In this document: positions 1,381 through 8,317 of the stretch, piece by piece
How positions within the stretch are numbered: the first letter of the stretch is position 1
Layout: every line of letters starts with the position of its first letter
Source of the DNA: Tilletiopsis washingtonensis
Taxonomy: Eukaryota; Basidiomycota; Exobasidiomycetes; Entylomatales
Reading direction: 5' to 3'
Assembly: GCF_003144115.1 (NCBI RefSeq)
Contig: NW_020312006.1
Coordinates: forward strand, 395,269 to 459,268
DNA: 64,000 bases
Notes under the pieces: generated by a model
What the model was told of the DNA's origin: nothing
Databases searched by the model: none
What the model saw: only the letters and a program-made list of their open reading frames with translations
Position numbers and translations under genes: made by a program

Positions 1381-1408
1381 TCAGAAGGGCTGCTCATGGT
1401 GGGAGTGG

Positions 1409-1443
<35 letters not shown>

Positions 1444-4400
1444 GCGCTGCTGCGCTTCTTGCTGCTGCTGCTCGTGCAGCTTTTGCGCAAAGAGGGCTTC
1501 GAGCGTCTCGAGCTGACCGCCGATGTCGAAGGCGTAGCCAAGCTGCGCGATGCCCTCGAGCACCACACCGACCTCGCGCTGCTTCGCGGCCAGGTCGTAT
1601 GTGCCGAGGTGGTCAACGCTGCTGACCGAGACGTGCGGCGCAGCGTCGCCTTGCTGCTTCTGACCGCCAGAATTGTTCGGGAGCGGAGCGGTGTTGTGCT
1701 GCGGCGACCGGCCGAGGGCGCTTGGAGAGGGGCTGCCGACGGACGGCAGGGCGCAGAGGCCTGCCAGCGCAGCAGGCGAGAGGAAGGTGCGCGGGTCGAC
1801 GTGGTCGCTCGGCGCGTACGGCGTCGCCATGGCATCGAGGTCGCCCCAGGCGTGCTCCTGCGCGGGCGACGGAGGCGCCGGCGGCATCGTGACGACGTAA
1901 GGAGTGCGGATCAGGAACTGCGCCACGGCGCTGAGCTGGCCGAGGATGGTGCCGCCGGTGTGGAAGACACGCCGCGGCAGCAGCACCTCGCAGACGAGCG
2001 CGAGAGAGCGGCAGGAGAGAAGCGTGCGCTCGCGGCTGCGCTGCAAGAGCCGGCTGAGCGTTGCAGCGTGGGCCGCGTCCTCGCTCGTCTCCGCCGAGCC
2101 GGGAAAGGCGGCGTGGAGCGCTGCCAGGTGCGCCGCTTGCACCTGGAAGCGCTCGCCAAGCACGCGGTAGACCGCAAGGTCAAGCATGCACGCGCTGACC
2201 TTGATCGTGGCGATCCACGGCAGCTGAGCGCAGTCGTGTCAGCGCTGCACGCGATAGTGGTGCACGCCAGCAACTCACGTGCTGAAAGGCAGTCAGGTTG
2301 TTCATTGTAGCACGCGCCGCCTCGATGCAGCGGTCGAAGAAGAGGAGCAGACTGTCGATGGAGCGCCAGAGGCTGGAGCACGCCTTCTCCAGGCGCTGCA
2401 TCTCGGGCGTCGTCGGACGCTTGCCGAAGCGGTCTTGCGCGGTCACCAGGGTGGTGGACATGCCAACGGGCATCGGATTGTCGATGTGGTTGCTGAGGAA
2501 GCGAGCGAGCGCACCGAGCTGCACCTTGGCAAGCACTTCGGAAGCATGTCGTCAGCGTCATCCAAGTCATGTTCAGTGCAGTGCGACTCACGGCTGAAGC
2601 TCAAGCCCATCTCGCCGCTCAGCTGCACTCCGCCTGCTGGCGAGGAGGCATTCTGCGCGCTGCGGCCCCCCTTTTGCTTGCCCGCGCCGGCCTGGATGCC
2701 GATCGCACGATCTGCCTCGTATGGCGGCCGCGTGCGTCCGAGCAGCGAGATCAAGGAGGCATATGTCCACGAGACGGTGTACACGCGCCCGTGCTGCATC
2801 TTGTTGATCAGGCCCTCGACGGCTGCTTGGTCCTGCTCGTGCACCTCTTGTGGCTGCTCAAGCCCGAGCGTGATGACATGCCGAGCGGCTGTCTCGGCAA
2901 ACACTACATGGCTGTGTCAGTCCAATCCACGCTGCCCGCGAGAAGGCATGCGACTCACACGGCGTGCTGGCAGGGTCGATCCTGTCGAGGATCTGGGAGA
3001 GAATGAGCAGGCACTGAATGCCCTCGACCGAAGGCTTCCTGCACGCCCTCGAGTCTCAGCAAAGCACGCAACGACCGCAAGGCTAGCGCTCACCGCAAGA
3101 GATCGTGCTTGTGCACCAGAGCCACTGCCTTCGCCAACATCTCGTGGCAGAAAGCGCGGCGTGCGCGGCCCCAGCGCAGGAGCTCCTTGGCTCGTCCGGC
3201 AGTGTACTGCTCAGTGATGCGAGGACCGCCGTTGATCCAATCGCTGTTCTCCTTGCCGCGGTCTTTCCACGCATCTACGCCCACCTCTTCGGCCAGCTGC
3301 GTGGCGGTGGCAGCGAGCTCGCGCGGCACCTGGCCCGGAATGACGGGCGCCACAGGAGGCAGGTTGTTGTCCTTGCGCTTGGTGTTGATGTACTCCTGCG
3401 TGCACACGATGCGCTTGTCCTCACAGCGGCTGCAGCCGAGTCCAGCCGCACGCTCCGTGACGTCGCAGCGCACCCGCCGCAGGCTGATGGCCGCGCAGAT
3501 GCCGTCAGTGATGTGCTCCCACGCCTGGCTACCAGCCGCCACTCACCGGCACGTGTCGCACGCCACTCCCTGCTTCCGCTTTGGCCGCCGGCCGCCGGCG
3601 ACTGGTGCGCTGCTGGACTGCGTGCCCAGAGAGCCGTCGGCACTGGTCGGGGCCAGCGAGTCCGCAGGCCATGCCGCGCTGGCCCATGGCGTCTCGCTGG
3701 AGCCGCTCTTGGGATCAAGAGCTACGCGAGGCAGAGTCTTGTCGTCGGTATCCTGACGCTGGCGAGAGCCACTGCCGAGCACGGCCGAGCTGGATGCCTC
3801 TTGTTCGTCCGACTCGCGGAAGCCCAGCGCCGCAGCGTGCGGGCCGAATGCGATCGGCATGTCCGTGTAGTGGGCCGCCCACGCATGCATGACGGCAATG
3901 AGCACCTGCGACGTGCCTGGCGTCGCCAGCGTGCTCTCATTGGTGGACGCCCACGTACGCATGCGCAGGCCGGGCGCAGCAAGTGGTGCCGAAGGGATGC
4001 CCTCGTCGCGGTTGCCGCCGTTGCTCATGATGCTCATGATGCGCGGGTTGCCGCGCGCAAAGTTGTAGCGCGAGGAGAAGTGCGCAAAGTCGACGATGGG
4101 CAGCTGGATGTGCGCCGTGGCGAAGAAGCAGGTGAGGAGACGGAGCGAGATGGAGCCGGCCATGACGCGCGATGCGAGACGTGCATCGCCTCGGTCGCCC
4201 GAAGCCACCTCCGGTTGTGCGAGCGACAACAGCGCCTCGCCCTCCGCATCGCCTGGCATGCTGCCATGCAGCATTCTGCTCACGCGTCAGCAATGCGGAA
4301 GCAATCTGAATTTCGAACCGCACTGACCTTGCTTGCTCGATGCGCTTGCCTGTCCGGCTCGGGCGTGGGTACCGGCGTGATGGCGGCGCGTGGTTCTTGC

Positions 4401-5604
4401 CACCTGCACAACGCGGGCTGTCAGACGCTGGATTCGTCGTTCTGTCGCGAGTACGCTCACATGTCAGGCCCTTCTCGGTGCAGCGCGAACACTTGACGCC
4501 TTCTGCTGAGCGTCCGTCGGGGCTAGGTGGCAGGCCGCTGCTCACACGCCGCTCGAGCAAGTCGCATCTCAGGTGCTGAGATGGCAGCATGGTCAGTTTG
4601 CCGCCAATTCTGAGCATGGACGCTCTGCTCACCTTCGCTCTGCATGCATCGCAAGTCTGCTCAGGCGAGCTCAGCCTAGGCGCCGGCATCTCAATGAAGG
4701 CAACGTCACTTACCACGCCTTGCCGCCGCTGCACCTTGGCCCGCCCGTCTGAGCTCTGCCCATCAGCAGCTCCATCTTCGCCATCCTCCATATCATCATC
4801 GCTCCCGTCATCCTCGTCGCCGCTGGCGCTGATGCTTCTGCGGAGGCTCTCGCTCGATTCTTCCCGCTCTTTCCGCTTGCCGCCAAAGAAGGAGTGTGCG
4901 TGCGTGTGGTCCATCGAGGGCGCCACGGGCTGGGCCGGGTGCATGAAGGATGCATCGCCGCTGTGCGGCAGCAACGTGCCATCCTGTGCGGCCTGCTGCC
5001 ACAGCGTATCGAAATCAGGATAGCTGCCATGCGCAAAGACGGGATGCTGCCCGTGAGCAGCGGCGGCGGCAGCGGCGGCCGCTGCAGAGTCGGCGTGGTT
5101 CGCAATGACGTTCTGCGCAGAGGCAGGCATGGCTGGCGTGTCGCAGAGCGGCGGAGGCATCGGCGGCACGCCGCTGCGTGCGCCAGAGAAGTCATCGAAG
5201 TGCGTGGCCCACTCGGCTGCAGTGCCCGGGTTGGGCGAGTCGAGACCCCAGATCCACGCAGCCGCACTGCTGCCGTCGTGTGCGCCCGGCGGCACGCTGA
5301 TGGCTGCGGCGATGGCATGTGCTGAGTGCGAGTCATTCGCAGCGTGGTCGTGGGACAGCAGAGAGGCCAGCGCATCGGTATGCGGCGAGTGCGCGCCGAT
5401 GCCTGCCGGCGTGCGGCCGGAGTGCGCAGCGGCGCCGCTCGAGGGCAGCGGTGAGCGCGGCTGGTAGCTCGACGCCGCCGAGGCACCGCCGGTGCTCTCA
5501 GGCGTCGTGTGCAGCGTGGCCAGATGGGCATCGGCCTGGCTGCTGCCCGAGCCTGAGGCTGAGGCCGCGGCGGAGTGGTCGGCCATGAGGCCGTGCCGCT
5601 GCAT
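1381..5604 (-). CDS. Transcription factor with two Zn2Cys6 clusters and a split fungal regulatory domain
   Basis: Eleven-exon model (high to low): 5604-4714, 4656-4633, 4575-4548, 4505-4461, 4403-4328, 4275-3547, 3483-3094, 3038-2959, 2903-2592, 2535-2279, 2223-1381; 1224 aa. The first cluster, at residues 299-325, is CDACRAKHLRCDLLER...CSRCTEKGLTC (C-x2-C-x6-C-x10-C-x2-C-x6-C). It is followed by a KRIEQAR segment and the first half of a fungal_trans-like domain (FFATAHIQLPIVDF, then SQVLIAVMHAWAAHY). A second cluster, at residues 594-620, reads CDTCRLRRVRCDVTERAAGLGCSRCEDKRIVC with the same spacing, after a basic KRKQG lead-in. The second half of the regulatory domain follows (RKPSVEGIQCLLILSQILD). 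The N-terminal 297 residues are Ser/Ala/His-rich with an acidic patch; the C-terminus is poly-Gln. The start could be ATG 5604 or ATG 5586. Its function is presumably nuclear DNA binding; targets are unknown. Confidence 0.83.
1408..1476. repeat. CTG/CAG trinucleotide repeat encoding poly-Gln
   Basis: An interrupted CTG run on the + strand is read as CAG on the - strand. It encodes an interrupted Gln tract with a run of eleven near the C-terminus of the dual zinc-cluster regulator, just before HHSHHEQPF and the stop codon. Length polymorphism between strains is likely. Confidence 0.9.
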
Positions 5605-7446: not shown

Positions 7447-8317
7447 ATGGCCTCTCGTTCACTCCTCACACGCGGCGCCGCCGCCACCCGGCAGCAGCTC
7501 GGCCGCAGCAGCATCGCCGGACCGTCGCGCGTGCGTCTCTCTTCCACCGTCGCCTCGTTGGCATACACGCGCGACACGGCTGGCGAGAGCGGCGCCGCCG
7601 AGCCGCCGGCTGCGACGGCCAGCACGCCGCAGCTCTCGCCGCACGACCGCGAGCTGCTGACTCGCATGCTGCGCGTCGACCATGCGGGCGAGGTGGCGGC
7701 CAACACGATCTACGAGGCACAGGCGCGCGTCTTTGGGCGCATGGGCGATCCCAAGACGGAGAAGCTGATGCTGGAGATGTGGGAGACGGAGAAGAAGCAC
7801 CTGGCCGTCGTGCGGCAGCTGCTGCAGCAACATCGCGTCTCGCCCAGCAAGCTCATGCCGCTGTGGAGCGCTGCCGGTAGCCTGCTCGGCGGCGTCACGG
7901 CGCTGCTGGGCAAGGAGGCGGCGATGGCGTGTACAGAGGCAGTGGAGACGGTCATCGGCGAGCACTATGACGAGTGAGTAAAGGCCGAAGGCTGCAGCTG
8001 CTCGGCTGGCTGCAAGGCGCGCACAGGCAAGGTGCTGACACCTCTTCTCCAGCCAACTAGTGCATCTGCGCACTCTGACGGAGACGCCGGCGGCCTCAGC
8101 CTCGGCCGCGACGCAGACCACAGCGTCCGGCGAGCCGGCGCTGCACCCGTCGCTGCCGCTGCTGGCCGACGTGATCACCGAGTTCCGCGACGACGAGCTC
8201 GAGCATCTCGACACGGCCGTCGAGCACGACGCGCAGATGGCGCCGGCGCATGCTCTGCTCTCTGCTGTCGTCGGCTGGGGCTGTCGTGGCGCCATCGCCA
8301 TCGCTGGACGTGTCTGA
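7447..8317 (+). CDS. COQ7: 5-demethoxyubiquinone hydroxylase, mitochondrial
   Basis: Two exons, 7447-7973 and 8053-8317 (79-nt intron GTGAGT...CAG), 263 aa. COQ7/CAT5 is the matrix-side inner-membrane di-iron monooxygenase that hydroxylates demethoxyubiquinone in the penultimate step of coenzyme Q synthesis. The ferritin-like ligand motifs are visible: [11 protein letters not shown] (Glu82), ETEKKH (Glu115/His118), [16 protein letters not shown] (Glu164 region) and [16 protein letters not shown] near the C-terminus. The helix containing [14 protein letters not shown] is the membrane-associated one. The first 40 residues are Arg/Ser/Ala-rich without acidic residues, as expected of a mitochondrial presequence, which supports the ATG at 7447. 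Length fits fungal orthologues. It is convergent with the following membrane-protein gene. Confidence 0.95.

Follow-up and report, generated by a model that had tools for sequence, protein, structure and literature searches.

In this report, we describe a gene for a double zinc-cluster transcription factor in the basidiomycete Tilletiopsis washingtonensis, found in a 64,000-nucleotide stretch of contig NW_020312006.1 (positions 395,269 to 459,268 of that contig, in the 18.7 Mb, 32-contig assembly GCF_003144115.1). This stretch is referred to below as the window, and coordinates are those of the window. On the minus strand, the predicted gene at 5604-1381 yields one polypeptide with two Zn2Cys6 clusters. 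The model uses the ATG at 5604, with an in-frame start at 5586 as the other candidate, ends with the stop codon 1383-1381, and joins ten exons (5604-4714, 4656-4633, 4575-4461, 4403-4328, 4275-3547, 3483-3094, 3038-2959, 2903-2592, 2535-2279 and 2223-1381) into a protein of 1238 amino acids (aa) with a single, terminal stop and no internal ones. The nine accepted introns measure 52-63 nucleotides (nt), have GT..AG ends, and in all nine cases contain a CTRA[CTG] branch-like motif 15-25 nt from the 3' end. Exon boundaries were checked by tblastn of two relatives, P0001 and P0002, against the window DNA, and an exon-wise comparison of P0002 with the organism's own genome gave eight matches at E <= 1 (49-62% identity), all in the double-cluster gene. 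The gene models of the relatives are predictions, as is the window's own. An earlier note on this DNA had proposed that both clusters belong to one polypeptide; the uninterrupted 1238-aa model agrees, and 51 of 69 relatives likewise have both.

The second cluster sits in an unusual place, as the exons on either side of it illustrate. Exon 5 (3547..4275) encodes the first part of a split Fungal_trans-like domain, a linker and the start of cluster 2, its open frame running continuously into the cluster. Exon 6 (3094..3483) supplies the remainder of cluster 2 and a further linker, after which the Fungal_trans-like domain resumes (WGRARRAFC...), and exons 7-10 (1381..3038) encode the rest of the helical regulatory domain, whose fold is taken from the P0002 model, and a glutamine-rich C-terminus. 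Cluster 2 itself (3402..3560, residues 608-639) reads CDTCRLRRVRC-x10-CSRCEDKRIVC and is split by the intron 3546-3484. Across the 1238-aa protein, the zinc-cluster family PF00172 matches two stretches (31.7 bits, E 1.6e-7, cut-off 21), the best of them at 606-642, and cluster 2 belongs to the family by both its C-x2-C-x6-C-x10-C-x2-C-x6-C spacing and a score above the cut-off. Loops of up to about 12 residues between the third and fourth cysteines occur in Zn2Cys6 clusters. The usual spacing is quoted as C-x2-C-x6-C-x5-9-C-x2-C-x6-8-C in the part of PMC5082525 that bears on it.

Placement of cluster 2 between two parts of a Fungal_trans-like (PF04082) domain, as first suggested, is supported by PF04082 comparison of relatives, by proteins from which the insert was removed, and by the P0002 model. 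PF04082 has no match at E <= 10 in the intact window protein, and scores 12.3 bits, under its cut-off of 23, once the insert is removed. Nine such insert-excised proteins were made and four were searched against PF04082; the match spans the junction in three of these four, the window's own match lying below the cut-off. In one set of seven relatives, five (P0014, P0026, P0038, P0039 and P0035) reach 23.3-35.3 bits; in another comparison, P0036 gives 14.6 bits, below the cut-off, and four others have no match; P0005 likewise has none, and 4 of the 23 members of alignment A1 are matched at E <= 10. The idea that the second cluster lies here instead of at the N-terminus was inexact: cluster 2 is indeed inside the domain, but cluster 1 occupies the usual place and cluster 2 is extra. 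The linkers joining cluster 2 to the regulatory domain are poorly conserved, of low confidence in the model, and probably flexible. For two relatives, the AlphaFold2 model shows a likeness to Cep3 from the CBF3 kinetochore complex (PDB 2veq, 2quq, 6gyp), although no match was significant in the Foldseek search with the relatives' models; identity is about 10%, Cep3's role is in the kinetochore, and we know of no cluster inserted in its domain.

Cluster 1 (4402..4653, residues 299-344) has the spacing C-x2-C-x6-C-x24-C-x2-C-x6-C and is split by introns 4632-4576 and 4460-4404. Between them lies a 42-nt segment (4506..4547) that had been taken as intron 3 and that we read as coding, contributing to the loop between the third and fourth cysteines (Cys3-Cys4). 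Its peptide is kept in two Ceraceosorus relatives (window, DLLERRVSSGLPPSPDGRSAEGVKC; P0001, DLLERRVNHGLSPNPENGNMNGVKC), and tblastn alignments with P0001 and P0002 run uninterrupted across 4547-4506, whereas the same alignments open 19-residue gaps at introns 1, 2 and 4 (the last in the P0002 alignment; numbering with the 42-nt segment as intron 3). Moreover, the CTRA[CTG] branch-like motif was looked for in the segment and is absent, and its GC content is 0.71, against 0.54-0.67 in the nine introns and 0.54-0.69 in exons. We therefore reject 4547-4506 as an intron and arrive at x24 for cluster 1. The identical x10 spacing claimed for both clusters does not survive this correction, since cluster 1 shows x10 solely when 4547-4506 is spliced out; only cluster 2 keeps x10. 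Similarly, residues 299-325 and 594-620 had been given for the two clusters, but when the earlier gene model was reproduced and cluster lengths were counted from its starts, that model itself gave 299-330 and 594-625, as compared with 299-344 and 608-639 in the corrected one.

On its own, cluster 1 of the window protein scores 14.9 bits against PF00172, below the cut-off of 21, with all six cysteines present. Its Cys3-Cys4 loop spans 12-68 residues in the 51 relatives with all six cysteines. Such a long loop is not unique, since another zinc cluster of the same genome (L025, G000:C16:569081) has a 21-residue loop in six-frame translation, with a possible unspliced intron within. In the Malassezia protein P0057, part of the cluster 1 loop (residues 79-93) is predicted as helix, with a 10-residue mean pLDDT of 81-86.

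The two-cluster layout is conserved well beyond this species. A protein search with residues 285-860 of an earlier-type model recovered at least 68 proteins at E <= 1e-3 among 7993 candidates scored, and a profile search with alignment A2 returned at least 53 rows, 52 of them already known and one new, bringing the relatives to 69 in total. The possibility that the layout is an accident of one genome was rejected on this count. Organism names are attached to thirty rows among the matches listed and cover 17 genera. By taxonomy look-up, Ceraceosorus, Violaceomyces and Malassezia belong to Ustilaginomycotina, and the remaining named genera are placed in the same subphylum. The closest named relatives among the matches listed are from Ceraceosorus bombacis and C. 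guamensis (Ustilaginomycotina, Exobasidiomycetes), at 59% and 58% identity. The A2 profile search, aimed at relatives outside Ustilaginomycotina, added nothing among the matches listed but that one new row, which is unnamed. A search with a 65-residue cluster 2 region of P0008 scored 52 candidates and returned 45 of them at E <= 10, none new; since members from Malassezia and Tilletia escaped it, its reach was short. Both searches need candidates that share exact words with the query and fall within a length band, and a distant source of the second cluster could escape them.

In alignment A3, which holds all 69 relatives, cluster 2 retains its six cysteines in 69/69 rows, with a loop of 10 residues in 51 and 11 in 18, and cluster 1 retains all six in 51/69. 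Of the 18 rows lacking a full cluster 1, 17 have opening residues that suggest a start within or beyond the cluster (in A3, stray ones of P0034, P0045, P0048 and P0063 fall farther upstream), and the other, P0058, has the first three cysteines with the rest missing; judging from sequence, these 18 are probably truncated or misassembled models. Conservation is concentrated on cluster 2, which together with its immediate flanks holds 23 of the 31 invariant columns. The mean majority fraction of its two halves is 0.97/0.85, compared with 0.83/0.72 for cluster 1 over the 52 rows in which its first three cysteines are present. The stretch after cluster 1 (SRRYPRPSRTGKRIEQA) is also strongly conserved, at 0.90. 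At the two positions in each cluster that correspond to the lysines with which Gal4 contacts DNA, R-R stands in cluster 2 in 69/69, and cluster 1 has K in 40/52 (Q in 11, H in 1) followed by H in 49/52. Likewise, the basic arm before cluster 2 has R, Q, G and V at -6, -4, -3 and -2 in 69/69, and that before cluster 1 has R at -6 in 48/52, Q at -4 in 39/52 and G at -3 in 47/52. The marks of a double-cluster family of Ustilaginomycotina are thus present: [RP]-x-[KR]-R-[KR]-Q-G-V-[AG] before cluster 2, and cluster 2 between regulatory-domain parts. With six cysteines in 69/69 relatives for cluster 2 and in 51/69 for cluster 1, the pattern goes beyond chance.

Whether the two clusters arose by internal duplication, as had been suggested, can be judged against other clusters of the genome. 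The comparison covered 21 clusters, namely these two and 19 of the genome's 28 PF00172 places; nine places not legible in one frame were excluded, and one spurious second pattern of L002 was dropped before the counts. By BLOSUM62 score over the conserved halves, clusters 1 and 2 are each other's best match (37; cluster 1 has a next-best score of 30, cluster 2 of 33), and their pairing ranks fifth of 210. They share the basic QG arm, and the GV ahead of the residue preceding the first cysteine is found in none of the 19 other genome clusters. Against this, intron positions differ, lying after CDACRAK in cluster 1 and within the codon after CDTC in cluster 2. A domain this short cannot prove descent, and with the introns at different places the likeness speaks for duplication only weakly; duplication is best regarded as plausible.

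A further gene and a probable one lie to either side of the double-cluster gene. On the plus strand, 7447-8317 is a COQ7 gene (ubiquinone biosynthesis), apparently with one short intron, whose first exon matches PF03232 at E 8e-42. On the other side, a plus-strand open frame at 1-1165 terminates at a stop codon in 1163-1165, some 215 nt away from the double-cluster gene's stop, the two converging. Within the window, this frame matches no Pfam family at E <= 0.1; a PF00172 place is found upstream of it, beyond the edge of the window (G000:C9:393708, 27.9 bits; L029/L019). Frame and upstream place together seem to form a second zinc-cluster gene running toward the first.

The textbook plan for such regulators is one zinc cluster before one regulatory domain, often acting as a dimer, and in Gal4-class homodimers a coiled coil after the cluster mediates dimerisation. 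The window protein shares with the Gal4/Pdr1/Leu3 class (PF00172 + PF04082) a zinc cluster ahead of what is predicted to be a helical middle homology region, as well as the canonical cysteine spacing in cluster 2, and the LEU3, PPR1 and PUT3 structures are weak matches to cluster 2 in a search of solved structures. It differs from that class in having two clusters, the second inside the regulatory domain and the first with a 12-68-residue Cys3-Cys4 loop across the family. The best solved structure for both clusters is AlcR of Aspergillus nidulans (PDB 1f4s, 1f5e, 2alc, 3alc), with E 0.0093 for cluster 2, in an alignment covering the RRRQN arm of AlcR, and an insignificant E 0.27 for cluster 1. 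AlcR has one cluster and uses the arm before it in DNA binding. Its basic RRRQN arm and longer Cys3-Cys4 loop resemble those of cluster 2, but overall similarity is weak and the likeness is seen in cluster and arm sequence alone. AlcR binds DNA as a monomer (cited in PMC5559640).

More than one DNA-binding domain per polypeptide is known from dual-specificity fungal transcription factors (Shelest 2017, PMC5415576), and in this respect the window protein is similar. The rows of its Table 3 considered here give pairs of different type (e.g. zinc cluster + C2H2), with no class of zinc cluster + zinc cluster. Elsewhere, two Zn2Cys6 domains in one protein are reported for PoZCP55 of Pleurotus ostreatus (PMC7295025), two zinc clusters for CCG_02279 and CCM_00582 (PMC6471507), and the same for an Alternaria factor in a one-line mention (PMC10305253). 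PoZCP55 differs in its three septin domains and in having both clusters C-terminal (PMC7295025), and CCG_02279 in being grouped with proteins lacking the fungal-specific transcription factor domain and in its cluster loops of 5-6 residues (PMC6471507). The relevant parts of these three papers describe no cluster inserted in a regulatory domain for any of the four proteins (PMC7295025, PMC6471507, PMC10305253). Rss1 (UMAG_05966) of Ustilago maydis is, like the window protein, a smut zinc-cluster regulator with a Fungal_trans region, but orthology was not adopted: the 866-aa Rss1 is set apart by its architecture, with one N-terminal cluster described (PMC5082525). Among the open-licence papers searched, none was recognised as dealing with the double-cluster family, and the locus tags of six relatives led to no paper.

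Taken together, we find it somewhat probable that the protein is a Zn2Cys6 + Fungal_trans (middle homology region) factor of a family that this analysis encountered only in Ustilaginomycotina, with cluster 1 before the domain and cluster 2 inserted in a loop of it, and that cluster 2 serves as the principal DNA reader and cluster 1 as a second one. Cluster 2, with its invariant R-R and near-invariant basic arm, would make the principal contacts; cluster 1, mostly K-H and with a long variable loop, would act as a second reader whose specificity is weaker or different. As a single chain carries both clusters, each behind an arm similar to that of the monomeric binder AlcR, a two-part site could be read by one molecule, with no need for a classical coiled-coil dimer. 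The earlier note had likewise proposed that such a protein might bind two half-sites or switch between sites. Furthermore, the regulatory domain may control the presentation of cluster 2: as this cluster hangs by two probably flexible linkers, a change in the domain could expose or hide it.

Several observations weigh against a reading role for cluster 1, namely its lower conservation, its loop of 12-68 residues, its recognition positions, which are mostly K-H rather than a basic pair, and its low PF00172 score in the window protein. These favour the main rival, a distinct but lesser possibility, in which DNA is read by cluster 2 alone and cluster 1 survives as a relic or serves as a zinc-bound protein-contact surface, kept for structure. 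On the other side, the six cysteines of cluster 1 are kept in 51 relatives, with P0058 the only one having the cluster's start that shows just the first three, and the stretch after it is strongly conserved. In P0036 from Microstroma (residues 344 onward), cluster 1 reads CSECQKHALVC, with cysteines retained and most basic residues gone, and this protein offers a natural test for cluster 1 still reading DNA.

Rather unlikely, in our view, is an ordinary homodimer, in which one cluster type per chain reads paired triplets and the other type serves different promoters; a 17-residue helix (H327-343) follows cluster 2 in the P0002 model, and Rss1, of the same broad class, homodimerises in yeast two-hybrid according to the relevant part of PMC5082525. 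The reverse assignment, with cluster 2 as a zinc-stabilised sensor or interaction module and cluster 1 as the reader, as in ordinary family members, would fit a cluster 2 inside the regulatory domain and a cluster 1 in the ordinary position ahead of it; we judge it improbable, as cluster 2 has the canonical C-x2-C-x6-C, the R-R in every relative and the basic arm, and the atypical cluster is cluster 1. That the model fuses two neighbouring genes is hardly credible and was rejected: although the single-chain claim rests on predicted models, exon 5 lies in one open frame and is about 50-60% identical to relatives in which a single protein contains both clusters, as is the case in 51/69.

In a two-reader protein, splicing may add a further level at which cluster 1 is controlled. 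Exon 2 (4633..4656) is a 24-nt microexon with both ends in phase 0, coding for TCDACRAK, which contains cysteines 1 and 2 of cluster 1. If the exon were skipped, the frame would be kept, these two cysteines would be lost and only cluster 2 would remain intact. Introns 1, 2 and 4 (numbered as above) are 57 nt each and stop-free in the reading frame, so that retention of any of them would not end the protein, and for the same reason the listing of open reading frames shows a 710-codon open frame across them. Stop-free 57-nt introns and a phase-0 microexon can be coincidental in a GC-rich genome, and splicing of exon 2 as a switch for cluster 1 is a possible reading of the sequence. Only tentatively, and with more doubt than conviction, we suggest a fuller scheme: the main DNA-reading cluster would lie inside a ligand-sensing domain, making sensing and reading one mechanical unit, a tethered second cluster would extend recognition to a two-part site, microexon splicing would turn this second reader off, and the layout would date from before the divergence of Malassezia, smuts and Exobasidium-like fungi.

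Among fungal transcription factors, zinc-cluster regulators form one of the largest classes, and the family described here is a real, conserved and apparently undescribed variant of them. With a second cluster inside the regulatory domain as its most conserved part, it offers a test of the coupling between regulatory state and DNA reading, and with two clusters on one chain it tests if a single chain can replace a dimer. Its members in smuts, Tilletia, Exobasidium relatives and Malassezia are annotated as hypothetical or uncharacterised proteins, and a function common to the Ustilaginomycotina subphylum may therefore be hidden among them.

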